Source: Acidobacteriota bacterium
GTDB lineage: Bacteria > Acidobacteriota > Terriglobia > Bryobacterales > Bryobacteraceae
Assembly: GCA_025350695.1 (NCBI GenBank)
Contig: JANXXI010000092.1
Location: 1 to 64,000 of the forward strand
DNA length: 64,000 nt
Direction of reading: 5' to 3'
The notes under the pieces are model-generated. The model saw only the letters and a program-made list of their open reading frames with translations. It had not been told where the DNA came from and made no database searches. Made by a program: the position numbers and the translations under genes. The first letter of the stretch is position 1. Every line of letters starts with the position of its first letter. This document shows, piece by piece, positions 2,875 to 36,700 of this stretch.

Positions 2875-2888
2875 ATTACCTGGGTAAT
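2875..2888. promoter_or_regulatory. Palindrome ATTACC-TG-GGTAAT upstream of vapBC, candidate operator
   Basis: A perfect 6-bp inverted repeat with a 2-bp centre lies 13 bp before the vapB start, followed by an AT-rich stretch including TATAAA. VapB/AbrB-type antitoxins usually autoregulate by binding palindromes overlapping their own promoter, and this one is in the right place. Seen: the symmetry and position. Inferred: that VapBC binds it. Confidence 0.4.
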
Positions 2889-2901
2889 GTAATATAAATA
2901 T

Positions 2902-9920: not shown

Positions 9921-9931
9921 GTCACCCCGGA

Positions 9932-11601: not shown

Positions 11602-11614
11602 TGCCGTACCGCCG

Positions 11615-12706
11615 ATGATGCGGGCGGCTGTTTACCGCGGCGACCAACAGGTTCTGGTGGAAGAACTCCCAACGCCTGAATTGGGAGCCGGCGAGATTTT
11701 GGTAAAGGTTGAGTCATGTGGGATCTGCCATACGGATCTCAAAAAAATCGAATACGGGTTGTTGGCTCCTCCACGTATTTATGGGCACGAGACGGCGGGT
11801 ATTGTGGCTGCCGTTGGTTCAGGCGTCACGAAATACAAAGTTGGCGATGGGGTGATTGCCTTCCACCACATTCCTTGCAAGAAATGTTTTTATTGTCAAC
11901 GAAATCTTTATGCCCAATGCCCCGTCTACAAAAGGGTTGGCATTACCGCGGGGTTTGAACCAGCGGGCGGAGGATTCGCCCAGTATATCCGTGTGATGGA
12001 TTGGATTGTAGAGAGCGGAGTGGAAAAGATTCCAGACGGCGTCAGTTTCGATACGGCTTGTTTTGTGGAGCCGGTGAACACGTGCTTGAAGGCGATTAGC
12101 TTGGCGGACCCGCGGAAAGACGACACGGCTGTGGTGATTGGACAGGGGCCGATCGGCATGCTGTTCACCATGATCCTGAAACACAAGGGCATCCGAACGG
12201 TGGCGACGGACACGATGGAGTCGCGCCGGAAGCTGGCCGTTCGGTTCGGAGCAGAGCAGTGCTGGGACCCCATAACGACGAACATAGAGGAATTCACAAA
12301 AAAAATTACTGAGGGACGCGGGGCTGATTTGGTGTTTGTAGCCACCTCCGCTCCGGGTGTGGTGGAGCAGGCAGTGGCGTGTTCCAGGCCCGGAGCGAAG
12401 ATTTGTCTTTTCGCCCAAACTTCCCATAAAGAGCGCATTGAAGTGTCTGGAGCCGATATTTGTGTCGGGGAACGACTTTTGTTTGGAGCCTATAGCGCGT
12501 CAGTGGACTTGCAAAAAGAGTCCGTAGACCTTGTTTTTAGTGGGGCAATCCCGGTTGGGGAACTCGTTAGCCACCGTGTTCCGCTTGGTTCGATCATGAA
12601 AGGATTCAATATGGCATTGCATCCTGGCTCCAAATCCTTGAAAATTGTAGTTTGTCCACAAATGTCCAGTACAGAGGTTCTAGAACCGAGTAGTACTAGT
12701 GTGTAA
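11615..12706 (+). CDS. Zinc-dependent MDR alcohol dehydrogenase, first of two in the hopanoid operon
   Basis: A 363-residue medium-chain dehydrogenase. Catalytic zinc ligands are visible in 'CGICHTD' and 'YGHETAG', structural zinc in CKKCFYCQRNLYAQC (C-x2-C-x2-C-x7-C), and a nucleotide fold at 'VVIGQGPIGMLF'. It resembles the sorbitol/threonine dehydrogenase branch. Two ATGs at 11615 and 11618 follow the hpnG stop by 13 nt; neither has a clear Shine-Dalgarno. Its position between hpnG and hpnC, next to a second MDR gene, suggests oxidation or reduction of an isoprenoid or hopanoid intermediate. The substrate cannot be deduced. Confidence 0.85.
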   Translation: MMRAAVYRGDQQVLVEELPTPELGAGEILVKVESCGICHTDLKKIEYGLLAPPRIYGHETAGIVAAVGSGVTKYKVGDGVIAFHHIPCKKCFYCQRNLYAQCPVYKRVGITAGFEPAGGGFAQYIRVMDWIVESGVEKIPDGVSFDTACFVEPVNTCLKAISLADPRKDDTAVVIGQGPIGMLFTMILKHKGIRTVATDTMESRRKLAVRFGAEQCWDPITTNIEEFTKKITEGRGADLVFVATSAPGVVEQAVACSRPGAKICLFAQTSHKERIEVSGADICVGERLLFGAYSASVDLQKESVDLVFSGAIPVGELVSHRVPLGSIMKGFNMALHPGSKSLKIVVCPQMSSTEVLEPSSTSV

Positions 12707-12757
12707 AGAAGGCGTACGAACAATAAGCATGCTGTTACTAGCAGGTGATGCACAGTG

Positions 12758-13798
12758 ATGAAGGAAATGAAGGCCGCCGTCCTTTACGGTAAGGAACAGG
12801 TCCGTGTCGAAACTGTTCCACTGCCTGCCATGGGCCCAGAAGATATCCTTGTGCGGGTTAAGGCTGCCCTGACATGTGGCACTGACGTAAAAGTATTTCG
12901 TCGGGGTTACCATGCCAGGATGATTGTGCCTCCCGCCCTTTTTGGTCATGAACTGGCTGGGGATATTGTGTCCGTGGGTCCGGCAGTCACAAAATTTAAG
13001 GTTGGCCAACGAGTGGTGGCCGCCAATTCGGCTCCGTGCGGGCATTGCTTTTATTGCCGCAGGAACCTGGAAAACCTTTGCGAAGATTTATTGTTCAACA
13101 ACGGAGCCTATGCGGAGTTTATTCGCATTCCCGGCCGGATCGTAAATAAGAACCTGTACGAGATTCCGGCTCACCTAACTTATCAGGATGCGGCGCTTGT
13201 GGAACCGCTGGCGTGTGTGATTCGCGGGCTGGATGAAACGAATGTGCGTCCGGGTGATAACATCGCTGTGATTGGACTGGGACCAATTGGGTTGATGTTT
13301 GTCCGCTTGGCGAAGGCTGTTTACGGGGCGAGGGTAATCGCTATTGGCCGCCGGCAGACGCAGTTGGATCGAGCGATGAAGATGGGCGCGGCTGAAGCAA
13401 TTTCGACGGCTGATACGACTGACATCGTGGGGGCGGTAAGAGCGCTTACTGATGGACGAGGTGTGGACGTTTCGATTGAAGCGGTGGGCAAACCGGATAC
13501 CTGGGATCAAGCGGTGCATATGTTGCGCCGCGGAGGAACGGTGAACTTTTTCGGAGGATGTCCAAACGATAGCCGGGTGGACCTGGAAACAAACTTGCTG
13601 CATTATAGCGAAATTACCTGCAAGGCGAGCTTCCACCATACGCCGCATCATATCCGCAAGGCGCTGGATGCGGTAAGCCGGGGACATATTACGGCTCGCG
13701 ATTTTGTGAATCGTGAAGAGCCATTGACGAACTTGCTTGAAGTGATGAAGTACCTCATGAGCCACAACGGGCACATGAAGACTGCCATCATTCCTTAG
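12758..13798 (+). CDS. Zinc-dependent MDR alcohol dehydrogenase, second of two in the hopanoid operon
   Basis: A 346-residue paralogue of the preceding gene, with 'TCGTDVK' and 'FGHELAG' zinc ligands, structural zinc motif CGHCFYCRRNLENLC and dinucleotide motif 'VIGLGPIGLMF'. It differs enough from its neighbour that the two are unlikely to be a recent duplication. ATG 12758 follows an in-frame GTG at 12755. It sits 51 nt after the first dehydrogenase and 4 nt before the hpnC GTG, so it is probably co-transcribed with squalene synthesis. The reaction is unknown. Confidence 0.85.
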   Translation: MKEMKAAVLYGKEQVRVETVPLPAMGPEDILVRVKAALTCGTDVKVFRRGYHARMIVPPALFGHELAGDIVSVGPAVTKFKVGQRVVAANSAPCGHCFYCRRNLENLCEDLLFNNGAYAEFIRIPGRIVNKNLYEIPAHLTYQDAALVEPLACVIRGLDETNVRPGDNIAVIGLGPIGLMFVRLAKAVYGARVIAIGRRQTQLDRAMKMGAAEAISTADTTDIVGAVRALTDGRGVDVSIEAVGKPDTWDQAVHMLRRGGTVNFFGGCPNDSRVDLETNLLHYSEITCKASFHHTPHHIRKALDAVSRGHITARDFVNREEPLTNLLEVMKYLMSHNGHMKTAIIP

Positions 13799-13802
13799 TA
13801 CA

Positions 13803-14714
13803 GTGCTGGAGCCGAAGGATTTCATTCGTGATGGGCAGGCCATGGGCCGAGGTTGGACGCTTCAGGAATCCTTGGCCTACACGCGTTGGCTTGCCACTCA
13901 TCATTACGAAAATTTTCATGTAGTTAGTGTGCTCCTGCCGAAACGGTTGCATCAGGATTTTTATAACGTCTATTCCTTTTGCCGGTGGGCGGATGATTTG
14001 GGCGATGAGATTCCCGATACCGCCGAGGCGTTGCGCTTACTGAAATGGTGGCGCGGCGAAGTGGACGCGATGTGCTCCGGCGTAAAAAAGCATCCAGTGT
14101 TTGTGGCACTGGAGCCGACTATGCGCCGTCACGACCTTGATCCGGTATTGTTTCACGACTTGATCACAGCCTTCGAACGGGATCAGACTGTGACGAGGTA
14201 TCAGAATTGGGACGAAGTGCTGGACTACTGCAAGTACTCGGCAAATCCTGTGGGGCGGCTGGTGTTGGGACTGTGTGGGTATCAGGGCACAGAGCGGCGA
14301 CTGCTTTCTGATGCGACCTGCACAGCGCTGCAACTTGCCAATTTCTGGCAGGATGTTACGGTGGATTTGAAGAAGGACCGTATCTACATCCCGCTTGAAG
14401 TTATGGCGAAGCATGGCTATAGGGAAGAGGAATTATTTCAACTCAGATTCGACGGTCGTTTTCGTTTGGTGATGCAAGAAATAGTGGGCGTGGCGCGCGG
14501 GCTGTTTGAGCAGGGCCTTCCGCTGACCCGTATGGTGGACCGGCGATTGTCGATCGATTTGACGCTATTCAGCCGTGGCGGCATGTTTATCTTAGATAAG
14601 ATTGAGCGGCAGGACTTCAATGTGTTAGCGGCTCGGCCAAAGATCAGCAAGACGGAACGGGTCGGGATATTGCTTAAGTCTTTGGCTGAAGTTGCCTTTC
14701 AAAGTGCGGCATGA
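13803..14714 (+). CDS. hpnC: Hydroxysqualene synthase HpnC
   Basis: A 303-residue trans-isoprenyl (squalene/phytoene synthase) family protein. The HpnC hallmark 'HHYENFHVVSVLLP' is present, with 'YSFCRWADDLGDE' as the first Asp-rich motif and 'NFWQDVTVDLKKDR' as the second. HpnC converts presqualene diphosphate to hydroxysqualene. The start is GTG at 13803, 4 nt after the dehydrogenase stop. Its stop overlaps the hpnD start by 4 nt (ATGA), matching the sequential use of the two enzymes. Confidence 0.93.
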   Translation: MLEPKDFIRDGQAMGRGWTLQESLAYTRWLATHHYENFHVVSVLLPKRLHQDFYNVYSFCRWADDLGDEIPDTAEALRLLKWWRGEVDAMCSGVKKHPVFVALEPTMRRHDLDPVLFHDLITAFERDQTVTRYQNWDEVLDYCKYSANPVGRLVLGLCGYQGTERRLLSDATCTALQLANFWQDVTVDLKKDRIYIPLEVMAKHGYREEELFQLRFDGRFRLVMQEIVGVARGLFEQGLPLTRMVDRRLSIDLTLFSRGGMFILDKIERQDFNVLAARPKISKTERVGILLKSLAEVAFQSAA

Positions 14715-15553
14715 CGAGTCTGGACGCGTCGTATGCTTATTGCCGGCAAGTTGCTCGCAGCCGCGCTAAGAATTTTTACTACTCCTTTTTATTACTTCAG
14801 AAACCGCAGCGTGACGCGATGTGCGCCATTTATGCGTTCATGCGCTATTGCGATGACCTAAGCGATGATGTCGCGGGCGGGTCGACCTTTGAGACGATGG
14901 AGAGGTGGCGTGGGGACATGGTGGCGGCCTTGGCGGGACAGTGTGAGGGTCACGTGGTTTGGCCGGGTTTTCGCGATGCGGTTGAACGCTACCGGATTCC
15001 GCACGAATACTTCCACCACATGATCGATGGCGTTTCAAGCGATTTGGTTCCGCGCAAAGTTCAGACATTCGACGAGCTATACCACTACTGCTACCAAGTG
15101 GCGTCGGTGGTGGGGATGACAATCGTCCACATTTTCGGTTTCGAGGACCCAAAGGCACTTGTGTTGGCTGAAAAATGTGGCGTGGCTTTTCAGCTGACCA
15201 ACATTATTAGGGACGTTCGGGAAGATTGGGAACTGGGCCGGCGTTATATTCCGGCTGAGGATCTGGCGCGGTTTGGGGCCGATCCGCTCAATTTTGAAAT
15301 GAGGGACGGATGGTTCCGGACATTGGCTTTTGAAGGGATGCGGGCGCGAACCTATTACGACGAATCGCGGCCGTTGATCCGCATGGTTCACCCACGCAGC
15401 CGGCGATCCTTATGGGCGTTGATCGAGATCTACTCAAGCCTGTTGAAACGTATCGAAACCTTCGGCTTTAATGTATTTCAGATGCGCATCCGGTTGACCA
15501 TGCCAGAAAAACTGATGATTCTGGGGCGGTCCTTTTTTCAAGTATTGTCGTAA
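14711..15553 (+). CDS. hpnD: Presqualene diphosphate synthase HpnD
   Basis: A 280-residue squalene/phytoene synthase family protein that condenses two farnesyl diphosphates to presqualene diphosphate. Both Asp-rich motifs are present: 'YCDDLSDD' near residue 46 and 'NIIRDVREDWELGRRYIP' near residue 161. Gene order in hpnCDE clusters would put the flavoprotein HpnE next, but the reading direction instead continues into a TonB-receptor promoter, and no amine-oxidase-like FAD protein occurs in the window. Confidence 0.94.
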   Translation: MTSLDASYAYCRQVARSRAKNFYYSFLLLQKPQRDAMCAIYAFMRYCDDLSDDVAGGSTFETMERWRGDMVAALAGQCEGHVVWPGFRDAVERYRIPHEYFHHMIDGVSSDLVPRKVQTFDELYHYCYQVASVVGMTIVHIFGFEDPKALVLAEKCGVAFQLTNIIRDVREDWELGRRYIPAEDLARFGADPLNFEMRDGWFRTLAFEGMRARTYYDESRPLIRMVHPRSRRSLWALIEIYSSLLKRIETFGFNVFQMRIRLTMPEKLMILGRSFFQVLS

Positions 15554-15620: not shown

Positions 15621-15649
15621 TTGTGGGCAGTACTAGTTCTATTTACAAT
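15621..15649 (+). promoter_or_regulatory. Sigma-70-type promoter of the TonB-dependent receptor
   Basis: TTGTGG (15621-15626) and TACAAT (15644-15649) are separated by exactly 17 bp and lie just before the receptor ATG at 15659. The predicted transcription start is only a few bases before the ATG, so the leader is very short. The 105-bp gap after hpnD supports an independent transcription unit. Confidence 0.55.
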
Positions 15650-15658
15650 ACTGATAGG

Positions 15659-18232
15659 ATGAAGCATTTTCTTGTTTGCCTTGCGGCGATTTATCTTGCG
15701 GCACTTTCGCCGGGGCAATCCCTTGGTAGTGCAGGTACGGTGCAGGGCACGGTCGTTGACCCATCCGGCGCCGTGGTCGCTAACGCTTCCGTGACGATTC
15801 TGAATCGTGTTTCGAACTATCGCAAGTCGACGACGACGGATGCAAGCGGGGCTTTCCGCTTTAGTAGTGTCCCCCCCAACAGCTACTACTTGGAAGCGGA
15901 CGCGCCCAATTTTTCGCGGAGCGCCAAGCATGTGGAAATTCGCGGGGCGGTTCCCGTTGTCGCGAAGTTCCAGCTGGCACTAGCGGGAACCACCACTAAC
16001 GTTACGGTAGAAGGCGGTGGCGCCCATATGATCGAAAACGTCCCGTACGCTCACAATGATATGGAGATGTCGGGCCTCGCTAAGTTGCCCATAAGTTCCC
16101 CCGGATCAGGTTTGAGTGATGCGATTACGCTTAGCACCGGGGCCGTAGCCGCCGATTCAAACGGGTTTTTTCATCCTCTTGGAGATCATGCCCAGACCAG
16201 TTTTTCGGTGGATGGCCAGCCCATCAGCGATCAGCAGAGCAAGCAGTTTTCCACCCAAATTCCACTAAACGCGATTCAATCCATGGAATTGATCACGGGG
16301 GCCCCGCCTGCTGAGTACGGGGACAAGACCAGCCTGATCGTTAATGCCGTGACACGTTCCGGGTTGGGACAAAAAACGAATGGCAGTTTGCTGGGGCAGT
16401 GGGGATCTTTTGGGACATATTCCGAGGAGGCGACTCTCGGTGTAGGTGGAACGCGGTGGGGAAATTTTGTTTCGGCAAACGGAATGCGATCCGGCCGATT
16501 TCTGGACACGCCGGAATTTGCCCCAATTCATGCAATCGGCAATAACGCCACGATCTTTGATCATTTTGATTATTTGCCGAATGCCAAGGATATATTGCAT
16601 CTGAACATATTGGGGGCCAGAAATTGGTTCCAAGTCCCAAATACATACGATCAGTTGGGGCAGGATCAGCGTCAGAAGATATCCACGTTCAATTTTGCGC
16701 CGGGTTACCAACACACATATAGCTCGACCACCTTGATGACGGTCAACGGTTTCTATCGAGCTGACCATGTGAATTATTACGCAAGCCGGAATCCCGCCGA
16801 TGACACGCCGCTGACGTTTTCTCAACGCCGCACCTTGACCAATTGGGGAGCCAAGGCTGACATCGCTCAAACCAAAGGCCGACACAATTGGAAAATTGGA
16901 ACGCAGTTGATGCAAACACGGCTCAACGAGAGTTTTTCGTTCGGTATAACCGATCCAACTTACAATGCGGTCTGCGTGGATAGTGCTGGTGATCCGCAAC
17001 AGTTGCCAACGGTTACTGACTCGAAACGGTGCACGGCATCTGGATTTTCGCCCAATCCAAGTTTGCAGGCGAGCTTGATTCCTTATGACCTTACCCGCGG
17101 CGGAAAGTTGTTTCCTTTCGCGGGAAGCAGGAATATCAATCAGGCGGCATTCTACTTACAGGATTCCATCAAGTTCGGAAATCTGTCCATTCAAGCCGGC
17201 CTGCGCATGGATGTTTACAAGGGAATCGTCTCTGATTCGAGTGTTCAGCCTCGCATAGGAGCCTCATACTTGATCGCCAAATCGAATACTGTATTGCGCG
17301 CCTCCTATACGCGCACCTTTGAAACTCCTTACAACGAGAATTTGGTTCTTTCCAGCGCGACTGGTTCCGGAGGGCTGGCTTCCAACACCTTTGGCGCCGT
17401 CAGTCAGCCATTACGTCCAGGGAACCGCAATCAATACAACGCGGGATTCGAACAGTCTTTCGGCCATTTTCTGATCGTCACTTCCGATTATTTCTGGAAG
17501 TTCACCGACAATGCCTATGACTTCGCGGTTCTGCTGAATACGCCGCTCGCCCTTCCCGTTTCCTTGCGCAAGTCAAAAATCGATGGGGCTTCGGCTAGAA
17601 TCGGGACGCCGGTTTTGCATGGCTTTCAGTGGACGACAACCATGGGACACTCGCGTGCGCGTTACTTTGGCCCGTTAAATGGCGGGCTTGTTTTCAATTC
17701 CGATGTTGGCGGCGATTCTGTTTTCCGCATTGACCATGATCAGGCATTTCAGCAACGGACGCAGCTTAGGTATCAGAAGGGAAGTCACGGACCTTGGATC
17801 GCTTGGTCATGGCGTTACGAGAGTGGACTGGTGGCCGGGGCTGTTAATAATTTGGACGATGCGCTTGGGTTGAGTGGCGCCCAGCAAGCGGCGATCGGTT
17901 TCTATTGCGGTTCTGCCACTCCTTCGATTCGCGTTCCGCTCACTGCCTCACAATGCAACGCCAAGAACTATGCGGCGACGCGCCTGACCATTCCGGCGCC
18001 GGGGACCGCCGATGACGACCATAATCCTGCTCGTTTGGCCCCTCGGCATTTGTTTGACTTGGGATTGGGTACGGACAATTTGTTCCACCGCGAGCATGTC
18101 CGCACCACCTTAAAGTTCGCCATTAATAATATGGGCAACAAGGTTGCCTTATACAACTTCCTATCCACTTTCAGCGGAACGCATTTTGTTGCCCCACGGT
18201 CGTATCAAGTTGCCCTAGGTCTCGTTTTCTAA
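15659..18232 (+). CDS. TonB-dependent receptor with carboxypeptidase-regulatory-like domain
   Basis: An 857-residue outer-membrane protein: signal peptide (1-20), carboxypeptidase-regulatory-like beta-sandwich (about 25-110: 'VQGTVVDPSGAVVANASVTI'), plug domain (about 130-225, with 'MELITGAPPAEYGDKTS') and a large beta-barrel ending in a typical aromatic terminus ('YQVALGLVF'). Acidobacterial and Bacteroidetes receptors of this build import large substrates, usually glycans, with TonB energy; the substrate here is unknown. ATG at 15659 gives the clean signal peptide; an in-frame upstream GTG at 15623 lies inside the promoter. It converges with the giant gene across a hairpin. Confidence 0.9.
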   Translation: MKHFLVCLAAIYLAALSPGQSLGSAGTVQGTVVDPSGAVVANASVTILNRVSNYRKSTTTDASGAFRFSSVPPNSYYLEADAPNFSRSAKHVEIRGAVPVVAKFQLALAGTTTNVTVEGGGAHMIENVPYAHNDMEMSGLAKLPISSPGSGLSDAITLSTGAVAADSNGFFHPLGDHAQTSFSVDGQPISDQQSKQFSTQIPLNAIQSMELITGAPPAEYGDKTSLIVNAVTRSGLGQKTNGSLLGQWGSFGTYSEEATLGVGGTRWGNFVSANGMRSGRFLDTPEFAPIHAIGNNATIFDHFDYLPNAKDILHLNILGARNWFQVPNTYDQLGQDQRQKISTFNFAPGYQHTYSSTTLMTVNGFYRADHVNYYASRNPADDTPLTFSQRRTLTNWGAKADIAQTKGRHNWKIGTQLMQTRLNESFSFGITDPTYNAVCVDSAGDPQQLPTVTDSKRCTASGFSPNPSLQASLIPYDLTRGGKLFPFAGSRNINQAAFYLQDSIKFGNLSIQAGLRMDVYKGIVSDSSVQPRIGASYLIAKSNTVLRASYTRTFETPYNENLVLSSATGSGGLASNTFGAVSQPLRPGNRNQYNAGFEQSFGHFLIVTSDYFWKFTDNAYDFAVLLNTPLALPVSLRKSKIDGASARIGTPVLHGFQWTTTMGHSRARYFGPLNGGLVFNSDVGGDSVFRIDHDQAFQQRTQLRYQKGSHGPWIAWSWRYESGLVAGAVNNLDDALGLSGAQQAAIGFYCGSATPSIRVPLTASQCNAKNYAATRLTIPAPGTADDDHNPARLAPRHLFDLGLGTDNLFHREHVRTTLKFAINNMGNKVALYNFLSTFSGTHFVAPRSYQVALGLVF

Positions 18233-18293: not shown

Positions 18294-21200
18294 TTAGTTG
18301 ACCGTTACGGAAACGCTGGTCAAGGTCCCTGGGTCACTGAACCCAGTTGGTTGCGTCGGAATTGTTACGCTCGCTCCCCCTAAGGCATTCAGCGAGAGAG
18401 TTACCGTCCCTTGGTCTGAACCGGGTTGGATTGTAACCGGATTCGGGATCGTAACGCTCGCTGAACTGCTGCTGACTTGAACCGTTAACGCAGATCCCCC
18501 CGCGAGTGCTTTCGGGATGATGGGGAAAACACCGCCCTGAAGGATACCGACTTGTACGATCACGTCTGAATTTGTTCCGACAGGAGCGGTAACCGTCGAA
18601 GATCCAAAATGGTTGTAGATAACCATCGCAGATGGAGCCAATGTAGCAGTTGCCGTGGCCGATGCCAGGCCCGAGCTTGTTGCTGTATAGTTCACCGTTC
18701 CTGAACTGGTTGTCCCCTGGACATAGAAGGCCTTTTGACTTGAACCTTGCAGCACGGATAATGTGATGGAACTAGATCCGGCGCCAGTCGCGGTAGCTGA
18801 AAGAAGAATACCGGGTCCAGCCGCGGTGATGGTTACCGTGGTTCCACCAGAACCCGCTGGTCCAGGCAAATTGATATAGTCAATGTCTTGCAGTTTATTG
18901 CCGACCGTCAGATGCCCGAAGAAGAACATAGGCGTGTTGCTAATCCGGGCAATCACGGCAGCTGATGTTAAAGCGGCGCTGGTGGCGGTAATCGTTGTGC
19001 TTCCCGTGACGCCCAGCGGGTGAACTGCAAATGATCCGTTAGAGGCTCCGCCTGGGATGGTTAGTGACGAGGATCCCAAAGTCGCCACGGATGGATTGCT
19101 GTTGGCGAATGATGTTGTCAATGAGGTTCCGCCAGCCACGGCTTGGGTCTCAATAAATTGGCCACCTGAAAAACGTCCAGTTTCGACAGTTAGGATTGCG
19201 TCCCCGGAGGCAACCGTTGCGTCAAAGCTTGCGGCTCCGGCGCCTCCTGGCGAAGTGATCCGTAGGCCAGACGGAGCGATGGTTACCGTTCCGTTTGCTG
19301 GGGCAAATCCAGTTGCGGTCATTGTGTAATTAGCCGATGTGGCATTACCCACGGCCTGTATGTAGAAGCCCGTGCTAATGGAGTGATTCGGGGGGATTGA
19401 GACAACAATTGAGGTTGTGCCTGCCCCGGTTGCAGTGTTGGAGAACCGGATGTTGGGGTCGGTCGTGCTGATTGTGGCTTGAATATCCGCCGTTGACGCC
19501 CCCGTGAGGGAAATCGTTGCCGGGGCCTGTAGGAAGCGGCCGACGGTGACATTGCTGGGGATTAGGTCGCTTGCCAATACCGTTGCTATGACCGTTTGTC
19601 CGGTGGCTGGAACTCCATAAGTAACGGGTATCCCGGAGGTGATTTCCGATCCGGCCCCGATACCGGTCGTGATCGTGGTTGGACCGGTGGTAACCCCGCA
19701 AGCCTGGAATTGGGTGGTTACAATATCGTCGGCACCGATGAAATTGACGTTGGCTGATTTCAAAGAGCAGAAAGGTGTGTTTGCCGTGCCCGCAAACCCG
19801 CCGATATTTCCATCGCTAAGACTCAAAGGAACGTTGATCGATAGGCCCCCACGGACTTGTTGGACGGCTGCCGGGTTGAGGGTTACTGGGTCTAGACGGA
19901 CGGCGGAAATCTTCAGATCGGTCCTTGACCCTTGGTATACCGTGAATGGAGCTCCAACTATACCTGGGCCGGATATCACAAATCCCGAAGGAGTCATGGT
20001 GATGGTCGCGGTTGCTGTATCGTATCCGGTAGCCTCCACCCTCACGGTTGCGGTTCCGGTGGAATCGAGGGCTTGAACAAAAATGGAGATTAGATTGAGC
20101 CCCTGAACCAGACTGTCCTGTACGAGAACGCGGCCCTTCACGGCCCCGCCTCCAAGAAGCACGTTCGGACTATCGGATGTAATTCGGAACACCACGCCAC
20201 CCGCGGGCGCAGCGGGACTGAAGCTGACATTCATCAATGTCTGCAGGTCCTTCCCGATGGTGAGAGCAGGAATCGTGATCTTGCCGGCGCCGCCGGTGAA
20301 GATGCTGTTCTGCAAACTAAATGCGACCGGCGGGGGCAGAGTCCCCGGTGTCTGCACTGATGTAAGCGTGGCCGTTACCGTGTAGGCGCCCAGTGTTCCG
20401 TTTGCAGTGAGCGTAGGAGAATAAATTAGCCCGAGGTCGTCGCTAAACTGGGAACCACCTCCCACGCTTGCTGAGGCTCCGGTGTTGCCGACCGTCGCGG
20501 CGAACGAAACAGTTGCGCCGCGGACCGGAGTTCCATCCGCTTTAGTGACCTTGACAACCAGTTGTTCGTTGAACGGCGAGTTAAGAAGCGAGGCCTGGCC
20601 ATCGCCACTTACCTTTGTGATGATGTAGTCGTATTGCGCGCCATTGGTCAGCGCGAAGGACACCGAGCCAGCCACTCCGGTAACCGCCCCTGTTACGTTG
20701 TATGTTCCGAGAGATGCATTCGCTGTGAACACTGCCGAGGTGGCGACGCCTGTGGCGCCCGTCACTGCTGTATTCGCTGTGCCGGCAAAGGTTCCTGACG
20801 CACCGCTTGCGGCAGGGGCTGTGAAGACCACCGTTGCGCCAACCACGGGATTACTGTTGTTGTCGGTGACTAGCACCTTCAACGGATTGGAGAAAGCGAT
20901 ACCCGGAGCGGCGGTCTGCGGAGTACCGCTAACCACAGCGATGTTGGCTGCGGGGCCTGCGACATTTGTCATGGTCACCGTCGTCGACAGCGCACCTGCA
21001 GTTGCCGAAATCTGGTACTGGCCAATTAATGTTCTCGGGGCTGCGGTAACGCTGGCAACGCCGGACGCATTTGTTACGGCCGTGACCGCGGATAGCATGG
21101 CTCCTGGTTGGCTTGCCGGCGCGGCGAAGGTGACCACAACGCCAGGTACCGGCCTTGCGGAGGCGTCGGTAACTGTTGCTGCCAGAGTTGATGTGGCGCT

Positions 21201-24200
21201 AGAACCTGCCACGAGCGATTGCGGTGTTGCTGTCAGCGCGATCGCCGACGGAAGCGTATTGGTTAATGAGAAGGTGGCTGTGCCTCCAATTCCTGAAGCC
21301 GTCGCCGCCACCGTGTACGTTCCACCGATGGAATTTGCCGTGGCTGTTACTGAGGCAAATCCGTTGGAATCGGTAACAGCTGGGATTGAAAGCACAGCGG
21401 CTGCGCCGTTATTGGGGACAACGGTGAATGTGACCGTGGCGCCCACCGCGGGTCCACTAACCCCTAGCACTTTAACCGTCAAGGGTGAAGCGAACGAAGC
21501 ATTGATCGGTGCTGTCTGGACTGCACCGGCGGTCGCCGTGACTGATCCAGGAAGAGGGCCGATGTTGGTCAAGTTGAATGCTTGGGACGCGCCGTTTATC
21601 GAGGCGGTTACAACATAGACGCCGGCAGTTGCGTTGGCGGTTGCTGTTACGCTAGCTACGCCTGAAGCGTTTGTTGTGGCGGTCGGCGAACTGAGTGTAG
21701 CGCCTTGTCCCGATGACGGGGCAGTGAAGAGCACGTCGACGGCCGGAACTGGATTTCCAAAGCTATCGGAGACGACAACCGCCAAAGGCGTTATGAAAAG
21801 AGTGTTCGTCGTGGCGCTTTGCGGGTTGCCTGAACTTATTGCGATTGAGGCTGCCGAGCCTGGATTGTTTGTCAGCGAGAAGCTGGCCGGTGTGGCCGCG
21901 CCCGCAACGGAGGCAGTGACGACAAACGGGCCCGCCTTGGTGTTGGCTGTTGGGCTGCCAATATTAGCATTGCCGAAGACGTCGGAATTCACGATCAGCG
22001 CCGTGGTGAATGTCGCGCTTGGGCCGCTGCCACTGGGCGCCGCAAACGTAACTGGAACTCCGGATACCGGATTGCCGCCCGAGTCTTTTACTTGAGCACG
22101 CAAACCTTGGGGGAAAGGATTGGTAACAGTAGCCGATTGTCCGCTTCCGGAAACAACCACGATGGAAGCAGCCGGTCCTGGCGTATTGGTAAGTGAGAAC
22201 ACCGCAGGCGTGCTGACTCCGAAAATAGTCGCGTTCACGTTGTATGGTCCACCTGCTCTCGAGTTGGCGGTTACAGTGGCGGAGGCCAAGCCGGAAGCGT
22301 CGGTGACAGCCGTGACTGCCGCGGCGATGCCAGGGACCGTGCCCGACGGGCCGGTGAAGGTTACCGTAATGCCTGGCAACGGATGGCTTGCCGAATCGGT
22401 TACCAAGGCAACTAATTGGCTGAACGAGCTGTTGACGGCGCCAGTTTGGTTATTGCCCGCGCTTACCGCGACCGACGTTGCGACGGCTGCGGAAATCGTA
22501 AGGCTCAGCGTGGAGTTGGCTGCTTGCTGCGGGTTGCTTGTGTCTCGAACCGTAGCATTAAAGCTTGTTGTTCCAGCGCTTGTAGGAGTGCCTGTGATGA
22601 TGCCTGCGCTGCTCATCGTAAGGCCGGCGGGCAATCCCGTGGCTGTCCAGCTATAAGGTTGTTGACCGCCCGCCGCCGCCATCGTGAACGAATAGGGCGT
22701 ACCGACCGTCCCCGAGGTTAGCGTAGTACTTGCAACCGCGATTGGTCCGTTAACCGTCAGGTTCATGACCACGTCGGCGATGTTCACGCCGCTGGCATGC
22801 AGTTGCGCCACTCCGGAGCCGATGATATTGACCGTTACTCTGGTGGCGGGGACAGAACTACCATCCCAGAAGAAGTTCACCGGGGTCTGTACCGTCGCGA
22901 CCGCTGTGTTGGACGACGAAATATTCGCCGGAATTCCATCCAGAATAGAGAAGGCATTGCTGCCGGGAACTGTTGCGAACAGGAGCAAATTGTATTGCAG
23001 TTGTTGGCCGATGGTGTTCACGGACACGTTGGGATTCTCCCAGGCAATGACTGCTCCAACCTGCATCACGAAAGGAGTTGCGGGCGTGTAGTTCGTAGCG
23101 GTTGCCGTGATGGTGTGATTCCCAACATTTTCGCCGGAGACTGTTGCTATGCCGGCGGTGGCGCCCTGTGGAATAAAGATCGTCGAAGGAACAAGATTCA
23201 ACTTCTTGTTGTCAAATCCAAGTTGAACCCGGGTTCCACCAAATGGAGCGGGCTGCGACAGGGTGGCGGTAAGTGTGGCCGGCGCCTGGGCCAGCTTAAT
23301 GGAATTGGTGTTAGCCGACAACGTGATGGTGGACGGCGGTTGCACGGTAACATCGCTTGTTACGTCGGCATATCCTGGCGCAGTTGCGCGAATTACTGTT
23401 GTGCCGACTCCTATAGCTGTTAGCTTGAATCCAATTACTTGACCTGTAGCTCCAAAGGTCACGGAAGGTCCGACGATAGCAACCGATGGGTTGGATGAGG
23501 TCAACGTAAACGTTGTGGTCGATTGAGCAGGGCCAGACAGAGACAGCGTCAGGGTAGCGTCAGTGCCCGGGCCAAGAAGGCTAACCGCGGAAGGCGACAA
23601 CGTGGCTGATGTGCCGACTGTGACTATCGTTGAAGCCGCGTTGAGGCCCGATGACGTTGCATTGATAGTTGTCGTACCGGCGGCAAGGCCGCTGATAACT
23701 ACCGAACGGCTTGGCGTGGTTTGACCGGCATTGAAGGTTACTCCTCCGGTGACGTTCGCCTTGGAGCTGTCGCTGCTTGTGAGTGCTACGTAGACCGTGC
23801 CTGCGGCAGGTCTAGCGAGAGTGATTGGGAAATCGACACTCGCATTGGGGGACACGGTGAAATTGGCCGGCATGATTATGTCGGCTGTAGCCGTGACGGT
23901 AACGGTAGCCGTGGCATCTGTGATGCCGGCAGCGCTGGCGCGGATTGTTGCCGTGCCTCCGGCTGCCCCTGTCACAGGAACGGTGGCCGACGTCAATCCC
24001 GCCGCAATTGTGACCGAAGCTGGCACAGTGGCCGCGGCGGTGTTCGATGAACTGATCGCGAAGGTTAGCCCCGTTGGTGGCGCCGGGTTAGCCAGCGTCA
24101 GCGTAAGATTTTGAACCCCTCCGCCGGAGATGGCGAGTGTAGCTGGTGAGAAGCTGATAGAAGTTGTCACCTGTAGCGGAGCAGAGCCTGAGGTGAAAAA

Positions 24201-27200
24201 TGGCGCCGAAGCCGTGATGATTGCCGATCCAGGGGCGAGGCCAGTGAGTTGAGGTGCGCTTGCGGGCTGGGTCGATCCTGCCGCAATTGTAACTGTGGAA
24301 GGGACCACCGTGACCTTCGTGGAATCTGAGCTGGAAAGTGTTACCGTGAGGCCACCGGCAGGCGCGACCGTTGGTAGCGTTATCTGCAGAGGGGTTGTTT
24401 GACCCATCACAACTGTCGGATTCGCAGTTACGGAGATGGCTCCCCCGCCCTGTACGATGACGGACGCAGTGGCGCTCGCAACATTTGGATTTGAAGCGGT
24501 GATGACGGCTGACCCCGTGCTCACGCCGGTAACAGCGAATGTGGCTGATGAGGAGCCGGCGGCAATCGAAACCGAGGCTGGTATCGAGATGACGCCAGCC
24601 TGATTGGCCGATAAGGTAACAGTCAATCCGGTCGCTGTTGGAGCTGGCAAAGTAATCGTAAGGTTTTGCGGACTAGCGCCCACCAGCGTCAAAGTGGAGG
24701 GAGCGAAACTTAAGGAACCAGGCACGGTAACAACCTGTGTGCCCGTCGTGTAGCCAGTGGCCGATGCGCTGATTGAGGCGGAGCCGAAGTTAACGCCCGT
24801 AACCACAGGTTGTGAAACAGGTTGGGTTTGACCTGCGCTGATGGTCACGGAGGAAGGTGTAATGGATACCTTCGTCGAATCGGAAGTTGAAAGTGCGACC
24901 GTGACGCCGACCGGGGCCGGGGAAGTCAGTGACACAGGGAAAGCCGCGGATTGGCCCGGCGTGACGTTTACATTGAAGGGAAGGAGAATTGTTCCGCCGC
25001 TGAGACCACCAGAGACAGTTAGGCTCATGTTGGCCGTGGCCACTTGTTGCGGGTTACTTGCATCGCTAACGGTGAAGGTAACGCCTGTCGTGCCGGCTGC
25101 GGTTGGTGTGCCGGAGATGGCGCCAGTTGAGCTATTCAAGGATAGACCGGCGGGCAGTCCCGTAGCCGTCCAGGTGTACGGAGACGTTCCGCCAACTGCT
25201 GATAGCGTAGCGGAATAGGAAGCGCCCACGGACCCATTGGGGAGAGATGCAGTGGCAACGCTGACTGGGCCGTTGACGGTGAGATTCATAACAACGTCGG
25301 CAATATTGACTCCGCTTGCGTGGAGCTGAGTTGTGCCTGAGCTGAGAATGTTCACTGTGACGCGCGTGGCTGGCACCGTGCTGCCATCCCAGAAGAAGTT
25401 CACCGGCGTCTGCACGGTGGCGACGTTGGTATTTGATGAGGAGATGTTGATCGGAATTCCATCAAGTATGGAGAAGGCATTGTTTCCAGGCACCGTGGCG
25501 AACAAGAGCAGATTGAATTGAAGCTGCTGGCCGACTGAGCCAACCGAGAGATTAGGCGTTTCCCATGCGATGATTGCGCCAACCTGCATCACAACCGGGG
25601 CTGGCGCCGTGTAACCGCCCGTAAGTGAGCCGGTAATGGTGTGGTTGCCGACGTTTTCGCCGAACACCTGAGACGTGCCTGTTGTGGCTCCTTCTGGAAT
25701 GACGATCGTGGACGGAACGCAATTCACTTTCTTGTTGTCAAAGCCCAGGGTGACGGTGGTTCCGCCGAACGGAGCCGGCTGGGAGAGGGTGACGGTTAGG
25801 GTTGCCGGGGCTTGCGCCAGTTTGATTTGATTGGTGCTCAGCGCCATCAATGAAGTGGCTGGTGAGCCCACTGTTACGTTAGCTGTTGAGTCCGCGAATC
25901 CCGGAGCAGTGGCGCGAATGACAGCTGTACCGATTCCCACGGCGGTAACTTTGAATCCGATCACCGAAGAAGACCGGCTAAGAAATAGAAGTTGCGGAAC
26001 GATGGCCACGGATGGGTTTGAAGACGTCAATGTGAAGATTGTGTCGGCGGGGATAGGGCCCGAAAGCCTTAGCGCCAACGTAACGTCCGCGCCAGGACCA
26101 ACTAGTACGCTGTTGGCCGGAGTCAACGCGGCAGTAAGACCGACTGTGACGAGTGTGGAAGCTGGAGCCAAGCCATTGGTGGATGCAGTTATTGTGGCCG
26201 AACCCAATGCGTTACCGTTGAGTACCACGGTCCGGCTCGGAGTAGTTTGTCCGGCGTTAAACGTGACTCCGCCAGTAATAGTGGCTTTTGACGAATCGCT
26301 TGTGGTGAGCTGCACATAGACCGAGTTTGCCTGCGACCGGGCAAGCGTGATTGGGAAATCGACACTAGTGTTGGGTGCAAGGGTAATCGAGCCGGGCATG
26401 ATGAAATCTACCGCTGCTCCGGCAGCAACAGTAACATTAGCCGTTGCGTCCGTGATACCTGGGAAACTGGCGCGGACTACGCTTGATCCAGTTGCTACGC
26501 CGGTGACAGGAACGTTGACACTGACTAGTCCGGCCCCTATTGTCACCGAAGCGGGTACCGTGGCGGCAGCTGTGTTGGACGAGCTTAACGTAAACGTCAA
26601 GCCTGCTGCAGGTGCTGGCGCCGACAACGTCAAGGTTAGATTTTGGGTAGCCGTGCCCGTGAGGTTTAGCGAGCCGGGGCTAAGGCTGATGGTTGCGGTA
26701 ACCGTCACGCCCTTCGAACCGGTTGTGTAGTTTGGAGCTGAAGCGCTAATAACTGCCGAACCAATATTCACGCCGGTGACCTGAGGCTGGGCTGCGGGCT
26801 GCGTAAGCCCGGCGCCAATGAATACGGAAGGTGGAGTGATTGTAACCTTGGAGGGGTCAGCACTTGTGAGTGTTACCGTTACGCCACCGCCAGGCGCGGC
26901 TGTGGGCAAAGTGATTGCGAATGGCAAGGTTTGGCCCGGCGCCAGGACGACGTTAGAGGGCAGACTAATGATTCCGCCACTCGAGGCTGCTGTGTTGGTC
27001 AGCGGAAAATTGACAGGGACGACGCTGCCGACGCTCGCCGAGACATTGTAAGGTCCATTGGCGATTGCGTTGGCGCTGACGACGACCGACGCCTGTCCTG
27101 CGGCATCTGTCGATACGGTTACCGGCGAAGCAATGCTGGCTCCGCTGCTGGGACCGGCAAAAGTTACCGGCGCGTTGGGGACAGGTCTACTGGCGCTATC

Positions 27201-30200
27201 GAGGACAAGTGCAATCAAAGGGGCACTAAATGCCGTGCCAACGGCTGTGCTTTGACCGCCACCGGAAACAACTGAGATAGTTGCGGGTATTGCCGCGGCA
27301 TTGCTCAAGGCAAAGGTGGCCGTGGCGGCAAGTCCGGTGACCGAGGCCGTCACTTGGTAATTAGTTCCGACCGAAGAATTTGCGGTAACTTGGACTGACG
27401 CCCGGCCTGCTACCGTGACCGCCGTGATAGTGTTTGCGATGCCGGCGCCGCTGTTAGGTCCTCTGAACGTAACGGTAACCCCGGACAAAAGCGCACCGGT
27501 CGCGTCTTTTACTTCAACTACCAAAGGCGAGGCGAATGTCGCGCCCACCGTTGCCGTTTGCGGGCTTCCGGAGATGGTGGTAATTGTTGCCGGAACCGGC
27601 GCGGAACCAGTGTTGGTTAGGAAGAAAGCAGCCGGTGTGGCCAAACTGGCAGGACCAATTCCAGCTGCCGAAGCCGTCACCTGGTAGGGTCCACCGACAG
27701 TGCTATTAGCGGTTACAAAGGCGGTAGCGATGCCGCTGGCATTCGTTCCGACCGTCACCGGGGAAGCAATTCCCGCCCCTGTCGATGGGCCGGAGAAAAT
27801 GATGTTGATATTGGCTACTGGATTTCCGGCCGTGTCAGTTACCCTGGCTACAAGCGGGGATCCAAAGGCGGTGCCGATAGCTCCGCTCTGGGGGCTGCCC
27901 GAAACCATCGATATCAAGCTTGGCGGGGCAGGATCCATTGTCAGGGTTAACGCCCCGGTAACGGTTTGCTTTGGAACGGTTGAATCACTGACGCTGCAGT
28001 TGACCGTGCTTGTGCCCAGTGAGGCAGCCGTTCCCGAGATCACCCCGGTGGAGCTGTTTAGCGTAAGACCGGGCGGAAGTCCCGTCGCTGTCCAAGTGTA
28101 GGGAGCCGTGCCGCCGTTTGGAGTCATCGTGAACGAATAGGGAAGTCCTGCGCTGCCGTTGGGGAACGCCCCAAAGCCAAATCCTAGAGGGCCGTTCACG
28201 TTCAGGTTCATTACTACGTCATCAATGTTCACACCACTGGCATGAATCTGAGCAAGCCCGAAGCCGACCGTATTTATGGTGACGCGAGTGGCTGGCGCCG
28301 TGCTTCCATCCCAGAAAAAGTTCACCGGGGTCTGAACGGTTGCCACAGCCGTGTTTGAAGAGGAAATGTTAATCGAAATTCCGTCGAGGACAGAGAACGC
28401 ATTGCTGCCCGGAACGGTTGAAAACAGAATAAGGTTGAACTGCAACTGCTGCCCGGCGGTGGTCAATGTGACGCTCGGCCTTTCCCAAGCGATCACCGCG
28501 CCAACCTGCATCACTATGGGGGCAGGGGAGCCGTAACCGGCCGATGCGGCGGTAATGGTATGGTTGCCAACATTCTCACCGGCGACCTGGGAGCTTCCTG
28601 TCGTTGCCCCTTGTGGGATGAAGATGTTGGCTGGCGTACAAAGCAGCTTCTTGTTGTCAAAACCCAGGGCAATCGTGGTTCCACCAAAAGGTGCTGGTTG
28701 TGAAAGCGTCGCTGTTAAAGTGGCTGGAGCCTGACCAAGCTTGATCGAATTCGTGTTCACCGACAGGGAAATGGTGGCGGAGGGTAATACAGTGATGGTT
28801 GCCGTTGCATCGGCAAAACCTGGTGCGCTTGCTCGAATGATTGTCGTTCCGATCCCGACGGCGGTAACTTTGAAACCCACAACTTGACCCGAAGCGCTGA
28901 TAAACGCATTGGAAGGCACAAAAGCTACTGACGGGTTGGAAGACGAAATGGCGAAGCCGATGTTGTTTTGAGCCCTACCGGAAAGGGCCAGCGTTAGCGT
29001 TGCGTCCGCGCCAGGCCCGCTCAAATTCGTAATGGCCGGAGAAAGTGAAGAAGTGATGCCCACCGTTACCAGGGTCGAAGCCGGAGCCATGCCGGTTGCC
29101 GTGGCGGTGATGGTCGCGGTCCCGGCCGCGACACCAGTGAGATTGGCGCCACGACTCGGCGAAGTTTGACCAGCGTTGATGCTGACTCCCGTTGTGCTTA
29201 ACGCCGCCGTGGCCGGATCGCTGCTGGTGAGTTGAATGAATACGGAATTCACCGCGGGACTTGCGAGCGCCACTGAAAACGGAACAATGTCGCCTGGGGC
29301 GACCGTCAGGATTGGGGTCACGATAAGGTCCACGGAACTTGCCGACTTCCTTCCGGGACCTTCGGCACTCGCCAAGATGGTTTTCGTAACCGGGTCACTA
29401 TTCGAAAATCCGTCGTTCACGATCAATTGCAGAACATAGGTTCCTGCCGCATCCGGGACTATGGAAGGATTTGAACTGGTAGCTGCGACTAGCGTTGCAT
29501 TGCTGTCCGCTGGCTGCTTTAGCAGGGACCAATTGTATGCGAGTTGGTCTTTGTCTGCGTCCGAAGATGTCGTGGCGTCCAGCGTCACCGTCGAGTTAAG
29601 GGCCGCTTCAACGTCCACCCCGGCGTCAGCGACCGGCTGTGTGTTGGTGGTGTCTATTGTGACTGTTTTCGGAGCGCTCTTCACGCGTCCATTGCTCGTA
29701 ATGAGCTGGGCCACGTACGTACCTGGCTGATCGGCGACGAACGATGGAGTCGCACTGTTGGCGTCTGAAAGTGTTGCCTCGCTGTTTTCGGGACGGGCGA
29801 TCAGTGACCATTGATAGCTTTCGCCAACGCCATTGGCCGAACCACGCAGAACTACGCGATTCCCTCGGGCGACGGTTTGATTCATCCCGGCGTTTGCCGT
29901 AAGCGGACCAGTTGCAGCAGTTGAAAGGACAACCGTTGCCGGGGCACTTTCCATTTTTCCATCACTGACAACTAGCTGAGCGACGTAGGAGCCCGCAACG
30001 TCCGGAGTGATAGACGGATTAACGTCGGATGTGCTGCTCAATAGTGCACCACTGCCTGCGGGAGCGCTCAATATTTTCCACTCGTACGTGAGCGCATCTC
30101 CATCCACATCGGTAGATCTGGAGCCATTAATTTGCGCCGGTTCCCCCAGCTTTAAGACACCGGCTGCATCCGCGCTGGCCACCGGAGCCGAATTAACCGT

Positions 30201-31112
30201 GGTGATCGTGACCGTTGCCGGCGCACTTTCCGAGAGGCCATCATTGACCACCAGTTGGAGAATGTAGTCTCCTGGCTTGTCCGGCGCGAACTCTCCAGTC
30301 ACAGAACTCGAAGCTGCGATTGAAGCTTTGCTCCCTTCAGGCTGGCTTACCATCGTCCACGAATAACGTAACGGATCGCCGTCGGCATCCGATGAGTTGC
30401 CGCCGCTAAATCTAACAATTGTCCCAACGGGAGCAGTCTGATCGCGGCCCGCTCGTGCCATTGGCGCGGAATTGACGGTGCTAATGGTTACGGTTGCTGT
30501 ATCTTGCTCAACGCCATTGTCCACTTTCACTTCAAAGGAATAATCGCCGGCGGCATCGACCACAAAGGTCGGCTTCACGCTGGTGGCATTTGAAAGGCTG
30601 GCCGCGGATTCCGCCGGCTTAGACAGGAGGGTCCATGAATATTTGAGGTTGCCTACCCCCGATGGGTCAGATGACTCGCCTGCGTTCAGTTCGACGTTGG
30701 CTCCAATTTTCACCGTCTGGTTTCTTCCGGCGTTCGCCGAAGGAGTAAGGAAGGACCACTTTAGATCGGAGAATGTGAAAGGCTTGGAGCGATCAACCAA
30801 GATCGTGAATGTGTTGCTGCTGGTCCTTCCATTTGAGGGATGGGTTCCGAAGTTTAGCTTACCTTGCCCTGGCACTATCCGCACCGAAGGGACCAAGCTG
30901 CTTAGGGTAGCCGAGGAGCCGGGGTTGGCCACTCCGTTCGTCTGTAGTTCTGCCCGATAGGTTGCGAACCATTGTGTTCGCCCCGCAGGGCGCTCGCTCA
31001 CGAGTTTATAGTTGCCTACAGACGCGCGGGGCGCCTCTTGAGCCAACAGCACAGGGGGAGTCAACATTGCGAAGGCGAAGAGAGCAGGTACGGTTAAGCG
31101 TGCTGAGAGCAT
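18294..31112 (-). CDS. Giant secreted multi-domain PKD/Ig-like/Big repeat protein (4272 aa)
   Basis: A Sec signal peptide (residues 1-25, ending LLAQ) is followed by an N-terminal region common to such proteins ('[20 protein letters not shown]'), then about five PKD-type domains (DNA about 30770-29360; '[14 protein letters not shown]'). Three near-duplicate supermodules of about 467 residues come next. Each joins YDG/Big-like sandwiches, a conserved '[12 protein letters not shown]' block and a putative-Ig '[12 protein letters not shown]' domain. Around ten Big_1-type domains ('[18 protein letters not shown]') lie between and after them, and the C terminus holds three copies of a roughly 200-residue unit. 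No LPXTG, TM or autotransporter barrel is visible. It is probably an extracellular adhesin or matrix protein. ATG 31112 has GAGG 6 nt upstream; an in-frame TTG lies at 31130. Confidence 0.85.
18300..20265 (-). repeat. Three C-terminal ~200-residue units of the giant protein
   Basis: Units begin near 20265, 19545 and 18912 (read on the minus strand) with L-T/V-I/V-G-x-x-LQ ('LTIGKDLQ', 'VTVGRFLQ', 'LTVGNKLQ'). Each passes through a 'TGAGSSSI..S' or similar strand and ends in a T-[LIM]-x-PSG/PSA turn. They are diverged but clearly homologous, and differ from the upstream supermodules. They may form the cell-distal or anchoring end. Confidence 0.65.
22482..23888 (-). repeat. Supermodule copy 3 inside the giant gene
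   Basis: About 1.4 kb, from '[14 protein letters not shown]' to '[10 protein letters not shown]'. It is co-linear with the copies at 25000-26413 and 27935-29333, sharing 'FPITLARPA', '[18 protein letters not shown]', 'NVGNHTIT', '[13 protein letters not shown]' and '[19 protein letters not shown]'. The likeness is strong enough to show in the DNA, for example around 22875. Confidence 0.8.
25000..26413 (-). repeat. Supermodule copy 2 inside the giant gene
   Basis: About 1.4 kb, from '[14 protein letters not shown]' to 'MSLTVSGG'. Its closest partner is copy 3, with shared '[14 protein letters not shown]'. It carries 'KKVNCVPS', one of the few cysteines in the protein. The equivalent block to position 22875 lies near 25397. 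Confidence 0.8.
27935..29333 (-). repeat. Supermodule copy 1 inside the giant gene
   Basis: About 1.4 kb, from '[15 protein letters not shown]' to '[12 protein letters not shown]', directly after the PKD domains. It is the most diverged of the three at its start but identical in domain order. The equivalent block to position 22875 lies near 28320. Confidence 0.8.
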
Positions 31113-31515
31113 ATAAGTCCTCTTATTCAAAAAATCCTGACGCTACTTGTGAAAATACCGAGCGTCTTTGTAATAATCCGGAGAAAGAAAAACTGAAAAG
31201 TAATAGTACCGCCAGCATTCCGCCTGTATCAGGCGTAAGTTCTCCGACTAAATGCTAACATCGGACCAAGAGGCAACCAATCCCCTAAAGGTTGTAGTCG
31301 AACGGGTGTACTTCGTGCTTCAGTACTCTCTAAGTGACTTGGTAACTACCGCAAGAGAAGAGGGTTATTAGCAATTTGAGAGGTGCTTGCTGTCTGCTGC
31401 GTAGAGGAAGGGTGATAGGACTTCGAGAAGGTAAATTGATAGGAGAGAAAGGCACTACTGCTCACGCTAGATAAGCGCCGCTGCCGTCGGTCGGCCCTTA
31501 TCCATATCCAAAATG
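31113..31515. other. Intergenic region upstream of the giant gene
   Basis: About 400 bp without a credible gene, between the start of the giant gene and the end of the ThuA gene (both minus strand). It holds the giant gene's Shine-Dalgarno (GAGG on the minus strand), AT-rich candidate promoter DNA at 31140-31205, and the nested hairpins at 31212-31258. The rest (31260-31510) shows no tRNA, terminator of note or repeat that I can identify. Confidence 0.6.
31212..31258 (-). promoter_or_regulatory. Nested stem-loop element 100 nt upstream of the giant gene
   Basis: A perfect inner hairpin CGCCTG-ATA-CAGGCG (31221-31235) is enclosed by outer arms, 31212-31219 pairing with 31251-31258 (AGCATT/AATGCT plus two G-T pairs). 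A 15-nt internal segment lies on one side, TAGTCGGAGAACTTA on the minus strand. It sits 100 nt before the start codon, inside the probable leader. The form suggests a structured RNA leader or a protein-binding site; it does not match a riboswitch consensus I know. Confidence 0.35.
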
Positions 31516-35822: not shown

Positions 35823-36700
35823 GCCTCACGCGCCGCGCAATACTCGCCGCGCCGATGGCTTTGGCCGCCGGCAAACCTGCCGTGCGCCTCAGCATCGGAC
35901 TCTACGGCATGCAGTCACTGCCCGTCGATCTAGCTATCCAAGAGATTCGCAAAATCGGCTATGACGGCGCCGAACTTTGCTTGATGGCCGGGTGGCCCAG
36001 CGAGCCATCCGAACTTGACGCCGCCGCTCGAAAGCGAATCCGAGCCACCGGCTTCCCCATCCCGTCGATGATCGAAAACTTCAACACCCTGGTGAGTGAC
36101 ACAGTTCATCGAGCCACGCTCGAACGCATCCGAGCCGCCGCCAGCCTGGCCCACGATATCAGCCCAGAGGCCCCGCCAGTGCTGCAATCCGTCCTTGGCG
36201 GTAAACCACCCGAGTGGGATCAAGTGAAAGCCCGCATGGCGGAGCGCCTTGCCGATTGGGCTCGCGTCGCCGCCGAAAACAAAATATTGTTGACGGTAAA
36301 ATCACACGTAGGGTCCGCCCCGGACACGCCCGAAAAATTGATCTGGCTGCTCGACCAGGTTCATAACCCAGCGCTCAAGGGCATCTACGATTACGGCCAC
36401 TTTGAGTTAGTCAACATCAACTTGGAAAAATCCCTTGACTTGTTGCTGCTGCGCTCCGAATTCATCACCGTTAAAGACGGGGTCCGCGTCGACGGTGCTC
36501 CGCGATTCATGCTCCCCGGTGAAGGCACGATAGACTACCGCCGCTATGCCGCAAAGTTGAAAGCGATGCGCTGGAGTGGTTGGATGCTGGTTGAAGTTAG
36601 CCGCCAACTTCAAATGATCGCCGGCTTCGACCCGCTGGCAGCCGCGCGAAAATCCTATGCCCACTTAGCGCCTATCCTGCGGGACGCGGGTTTGCGGTAG
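35819..36700 (+). CDS. Exported sugar phosphate isomerase/epimerase-like TIM-barrel protein
   Basis: A 293-residue protein. The N terminus 'LTRRAILAAPMALAAG' resembles a Tat signal. The rest is an AP-endonuclease-2/xylose-isomerase-like barrel ('EIRKIGYDGAELCL', 'VKSHVGSAPDTPEKLIWLLDQV', 'GIYDYGHFELV', 'FITVKDG', 'LPGEGTIDYRRYAAKL', 'WMLVEVSR'). The His/Glu/Asp metal ligands of the family appear in the expected strands. It is translationally coupled to the DJ-1 gene, and its last 29 nt are antisense to the next gene's end. A role in sugar catabolism fits the neighbouring Ogl/ThuA genes but is inferred. Confidence 0.85.
   Translation: MSLTRRAILAAPMALAAGKPAVRLSIGLYGMQSLPVDLAIQEIRKIGYDGAELCLMAGWPSEPSELDAAARKRIRATGFPIPSMIENFNTLVSDTVHRATLERIRAAASLAHDISPEAPPVLQSVLGGKPPEWDQVKARMAERLADWARVAAENKILLTVKSHVGSAPDTPEKLIWLLDQVHNPALKGIYDYGHFELVNINLEKSLDLLLLRSEFITVKDGVRVDGAPRFMLPGEGTIDYRRYAAKLKAMRWSGWMLVEVSRQLQMIAGFDPLAAARKSYAHLAPILRDAGLR

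Follow-up and report, generated by a model that had tools for sequence, protein, structure and literature searches.

The giant gene at positions 18294 to 31112 of the DNA analysed here, a stretch of 64,000 nucleotides that we refer to as the window, encodes a member of an undescribed protein family with the build NTD, five PKD domains, a variable middle and three CTD, whose relatives lie in genomes labelled Candidatus Solibacter or Bryobacterales. The family belongs to the class of fibrillar surface proteins, and what is notable in it is the combination of constant ends, a variable middle and a conserved gene neighbourhood. Giant genes of uncultured soil bacteria are largely unexplained, and here their comparison yields a defined family. 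The preliminary description of this DNA had allowed that the build might turn out to be a widely known, characterised family; the libraries searched gave no characterised homologue, and a partial coverage of the literature gave no paper on the family.

The gene is assigned to the minus strand because the plus strand of 18294–31112 is full of stop codons, and it occupies a single open frame (31130 to 18294) with no internal stop. The ATG at 31112, which has AAGAGG just 5' of it, was chosen as the best start, and from there to the stop at 18294 the gene comprises 4272 codons plus the stop and specifies a protein of 4272 amino acids; the coordinates first proposed for it were right. The protein is predicted to be secreted, judging from a type-I-like signal peptide at its N end (amino acids 1–25, positions 31038–31112; hydrophobic at amino acids 6–24 and ending ...LLAQ/EAP). 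It contains five Cys (0.12%) and has a pI of 5.0. A hidden C-terminal sorting signal or a lipid anchor had been raised as something to look for, and neither was seen: the last 60 residues hold no PEP-CTERM motif and no hydrophobic stretch, there is no lipobox Cys, and hydrophobicity along the whole chain revealed no second strongly hydrophobic stretch.

Pfam recognised PKD domains (K319L-like and PKD_4) and Big_1 domains in the giant protein, and no catalytic or carbohydrate-binding family besides a partial Sde0182_C match within one PKD domain; the full split into domains was made with profiles built from the protein's own sequence. Read from the N terminus along the minus strand, the signal peptide is followed by NTD (amino acids 26–118, 30759–31037), which is common to the family and has no Pfam match, and by the five PKD domains (124–584, 29361–30743). 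There follow supermodule A (590–1060, 27933–29345), three Big_1 domains (1067–1378, 26979–27914), one extra d1-d2 pair (1381–1562, 26427–26972), supermodule B (1564–2035, 25008–26423), two extra d1-d2 pairs (2042–2406, 23895–24989), supermodule C (2406–2875, 22488–23897) and seven further Big_1 domains (2881–3607, 20292–22472), which bring the Big_1 total to ten. The chain closes with CTD1 to CTD3 (3614–4272, 18297–20273), each of two Ig-like sandwiches and without a Pfam family. Counting each CTD as two, the protein holds about 43 Ig-like, PKD or Big domains. The mix of PKD, Ig-like and Big domains noted earlier is thus upheld, PKD and Big_1 by Pfam and the Ig-like modules by structural model, and the very long fibre foreseen from it is likely for a secreted chain of this many domains.

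Supermodules A, B and C, delimited by their own profiles and by block alignment, contain the same five domains, d1 to d5, in identical order over about 470 amino acids or 1.4 kb, as was already stated when they were described as three multi-domain blocks duplicated as units. Protein identity among them is 61–67% (E 1e-167 or better between copies), a likeness far beyond chance, and at the DNA level repeats of 300 nt, 72% identical, follow the same register. Synonymous sites between the blocks are saturated (pS 0.65–0.83), so that dN/dS is not exact, and amino acid identity per domain is 46–86%. It is d4 that is best conserved (75–86% amino acid identity, pN 0.09–0.14), with d3 second, while d1, d2 and d5 drift. 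Saturated synonymous sites together with kept amino acids indicate that the triplication is old and that the protein has been maintained, and the saturation rules out recent duplication, gene conversion or an assembly artefact as the origin of the blocks. A block profile search of 297 genomes of the phylum found the whole block, at a strict cut-off, only in the source genome; the three-block alignment, run against named genomes, gave 83 pattern matches and 0 relatives.

Structure prediction, like the domain search, had been recommended at the outset, and the model of supermodule C resolved into five sandwiches (pLDDT 80); its pTM of 0.49 means that it informs on the domains and not on the geometry between them. 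The d2 model best matched a Big_2 domain (Z 11.8, rmsd 1.8, 81 residues), while d5 was weakly modelled and has a sequence match to the SraP adhesin in the PDB (E 4e-11). The CTD model (pLDDT 82) contains two Ig-like sandwiches and best matched the S-layer protein SbsC (Z 10.2, rmsd 1.9, 82 residues); CTD compared with the PDB by sequence gave chance-level matches only. The tandem Ig modules nearest to the CTD and supermodule models are those of SbsC, intimin, invasin, InvE/InvD, FdeC and an adhesin extender region. As far as the models go, these fold matches are generically Ig-like, and a shared Ig fold is not proof of function.

In six other genomes of the taxonomic family profile searches gave a weak match to d4, and in eight other genomes a match to the C-terminal region; the loci concerned proved on reading to carry giant or large genes whose ends are the same. 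The relatives' open frames reach 3528 amino acids (L052), more than 4500 (L053, cut) and 4274 (L054, which also holds three d4-d5 modules), with others of 2311, 2327 and 2668. The NTD region and five PKD domains stand in register in all 12 N-terminal ends studied, NTD being weakly recognised in some, and one protein (L089) has six further PKD domains later, in its middle. Three terminal CTD, a unit of 210 amino acids, are present in the six uncut members that have an N end (window, L052, L054, L087, L088 and L089); the first gene of L055 is without them. NTD occurs in 17 of 237 genomes of the taxonomic family, and CTD, at E 1e-10, in 4 of 396 genomes of the phylum. Scanning named records with a four-row NTD alignment gave four loci, in Acidobacteria SZAS-9, Terriglobia SRVP_31, Candidatus Solibacter GL140_5 and Bryobacterales GL140_5. 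More distant CTD proteins (L109–L111) have other builds; one of them, in another lineage of the phylum (L109, G606:C69), is a 5277-codon open frame with eight PKD domains and about twelve tandem CTD.

Best-match comparisons separate the ends of these proteins from the middle. For PKD domains, the best match in another protein occupies the corresponding position in 571 of 660 cases (permuted expectation 134, maximum 197), and for CTD in 278 of 330 (permuted expectation 110, maximum 163), so the ends descend vertically. Best matches inside the same protein are rare for the end domains (PKD 6/60, CTD 0/33) and frequent for most middle domains (d1 32/53, d2 33/43, d4 10/12, d5 36/44), with lower proportions in d3 (6/28) and Big_1 (11/29), so the middle grows largely by duplication within the gene. 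Members of the family have ends that are orthologous bead for bead and a middle that is rebuilt by copying multi-bead blocks.

In eight genomes, the source genome included through a second copy of the gene, the giant gene stands in a previously unnoted same-strand cluster, in the order Cys-rich secreted protein, SurA_N-DsbA fusion, PEP-CTERM protein, giant gene; the fusion and the Cys-rich protein are present in 8/8 and the PEP-CTERM protein in 7/8. The helper genes lie 5' of the giant gene at L084 (G000:C291), L088, L094, L092, L095, L086 and L093. The Cys-rich protein is about 225 amino acids long, with CCxC and no Pfam match. The fusion has about 350 amino acids and CPYC; its DsbA/thioredoxin part is clear, and its SurA_N similarity, where seen, lies under the Pfam cut-off (E 0.01 to 1.6e-4). 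Because the giant proteins of the family hold only one to five Cys each, the Cys-rich protein is the more probable client of the DsbA part, to judge by composition. The Cys-rich family is itself dispersed, with at least 12 copies in the source genome, most of them on other contigs, and occurrence in 21 of 237 genomes; its domain sometimes lies within open frames of 700–1200 codons (source-genome contigs C73, C57 and C181, for example). The PEP-CTERM protein of the cluster, in frames of 184–252 codons, could have a role in something unrelated. A further gene, for a protein of the 478-residue class with a signal peptide and two CTD, lies directly 3' of the giant gene at L052 (1339–2772), L054 (15256–16689) and L088 and is the last gene in three C-end pieces (L048, L050 and L051); it was not found in the source genome.

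The window copy stands outside this neighbourhood. Its 64 kb hold no intact Cys-rich, SurA_N-DsbA or PEP-CTERM gene, which agrees with the preliminary description's remark that no dedicated secretion system or anchor lies nearby as far as intact genes in the window are concerned; for the relatives and the second copy the remark fails, as these adjoin a SurA_N-DsbA gene and usually a PEP-CTERM gene. The second family member of the source genome is in pieces at two contig ends, C291 carrying two Cys-rich genes, the SurA_N-DsbA and PEP-CTERM genes and a cut NTD-5xPKD end, and C349 carrying three d5, three Big_1 and three CTD, also cut; the pieces are likely one gene. The same genome has one exosortase and five secretins. 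The window copy forms a long branch (0.88, versus 0.31 for C291) and joins C291 weakly (80/69) in a tree of N ends, and a tree of C ends places it with C349 and L048 (90/93); it is a divergent orphan paralogue. An open frame ending 10 bases 5' of its ATG (31123–31254, minus strand) closes with a PEP-CTERM-like tail, TPDTGGMLAVLLLFSFSFSGLLQRRS..., possibly the relic of a sorting tail. This motif is the sole one in the window and appeared in 0 of 60 Markov shuffles, with a pattern that was written post hoc; Pfam and NCBIfam gave no match to the tail, and NCBIfam also missed the PEP-CTERM tails of two relatives. TonB-dependent receptor genes adjacent to the giant gene (15623–18232) and also beside C349 were considered as exporters and dropped, none having been noticed beside the other giant genes in a partial scan of their neighbours.

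We consider it rather probable that the giant protein is exported by Sec as a very long, flexible fibre of about 43 domains and acts extracellularly, as an adhesive fibril of the surface or the matrix that is assembled with helpers; its passage through the outer membrane, its anchoring through the PEP-CTERM partner and its adhesion we infer. The ends would be functional caps kept in fixed number and order, N-terminally NTD with five PKD domains and C-terminally three CTD of two Ig-like domains each, and the middle an adjustable spacer or display region lengthened through block copying within the gene, with d4 as the likeliest, putative, binding or packing site. In the relatives, a periplasmic SurA_N-DsbA factor, a small disulfide-rich secreted Cys-rich protein, in most cases a PEP-CTERM protein processed by exosortase and often the 2-CTD protein would fold, anchor or cap the fibre, and the window copy would presumably be served in trans by the helpers of the second locus. 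A stronger form of this proposal, of which we are doubtful, is a dedicated and undescribed fibre-assembly system of Acidobacteria in which the SurA_N-DsbA protein would fold and oxidise the set, the exosortase-cleaved PEP-CTERM protein would form a non-covalent base, the giant protein would dock by its NTD-5xPKD or its 3xCTD cap, and the 2-CTD protein would cap or link chains; if it holds, constant caps would leave the middle free to be exchanged and extended.

An unlikely alternative is that the protein serves as a scaffold which binds polysaccharides and keeps or presents enzymes on pectin or other plant polymers; it is suggested by two Pectate_lyase22-like (oligogalacturonate-lyase-like) proteins and a ThuA protein encoded upstream of the giant gene. 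Glycan-active proteins often contain PKD and Ig-like domains as spacers, which would suit such a scaffold, but the one partial Sde0182_C match is all that Pfam offers toward a catalytic or binding function and the giant genes of relatives have other neighbours. That the window copy is a decaying, non-functional remnant of a five-gene locus is distinctly unlikely: the missing helper genes, the possible PEP-CTERM relic and the long branch would all follow from decay, yet 4272 codons stand open and the module copies combine low non-synonymous with saturated synonymous change. We think it improbable that the protein is a structural component of a layer, S-layer-like or a sheath, as opposed to an adhesive fibre; the CTD and module models do match Ig domains of the S-layer proteins SbsC and EA1, but patchy presence in the taxonomic family and variable length fit a lattice protein poorly.

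It is very improbable that the giant protein is an adhesin of a known giant type, either an RTX or BapA-LapA-like type I adhesin or an inverse autotransporter like intimin and invasin. With the latter it shares Big_1 domains, its ten being of the passenger kind found there, and the Ig-like fold of modules and CTD; it is much longer, however, has other domain types, and starts with NTD and PKD, the Pfam and NCBIfam matches including neither a beta-barrel nor LysM. Against the type I adhesins, it has no GGxGxD motif and no RTX family in the Pfam scan, and the 20 neighbours scanned include no type I secretion genes. As a long chain of Ig-like or stalk domains that is secreted on the evidence of its signal peptide, it has the build of the fibrillar adhesins in the broad sense. 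Like the giant adhesin of Mobiluncus (PMC10619420) and the Ig-like fibrillar adhesins of Vibrio (PMC8877628), it is a giant secreted chain of many Ig-like domains, and it differs from them in having two kinds of Pfam-less domain as fixed caps at its ends, its five PKD domains and mixed middle, the lack of a sorting signal on the chain and the neighbourhood of its family.

The preliminary description held the build to be unlike the single-domain tandem repeats that are usual for giant adhesins. The multi-domain blocks are real, but their mode of duplication is not unique, since the DDxP proteins combine several module types per protein in repeated copies (PMC7730722); in a motif search the giant protein showed no DDxP, DGDGD or RTX motif, and it differs from them in phylum and domains. 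The PKD array also aligns with the PKD stretch of NF038112, the model of a myxosortase-dependent M36 peptidase, although far under its cut-off (231 versus 1500 bits) and with no peptidase and no MYXO-CTERM. PEP-CTERM/exosortase systems are represented, for example, by a floc-related PEP-CTERM protein (PMC9850573); here most in-locus giant genes follow a gene for a PEP-CTERM protein and the source genome has an exosortase, whereas the giant protein itself is without a PEP-CTERM tail. The literature covered, in part, gave no report of a giant partner to such a system, and the family may connect exosortase systems with giant fibrous proteins. NTD, CTD, the SurA_N-DsbA fusion and the PEP-CTERM partner are concrete parts from which to consider by what means long fibres of the surface or the matrix might be made in Acidobacteria.

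Elsewhere in the window, two long open frames (36672–37928 and 45065–47434; 418 and 789 amino acids) have no Pfam match, and an operon of the hopanoid type at 7024–15553 encodes LytB, a squalene-hopene cyclase, two SQS_PSY proteins and dehydrogenases. In a synteny comparison the genes to the right of this operon were not conserved in five relatives; the operon's synthase is kept in relatives, and the gene order breaks right after it.
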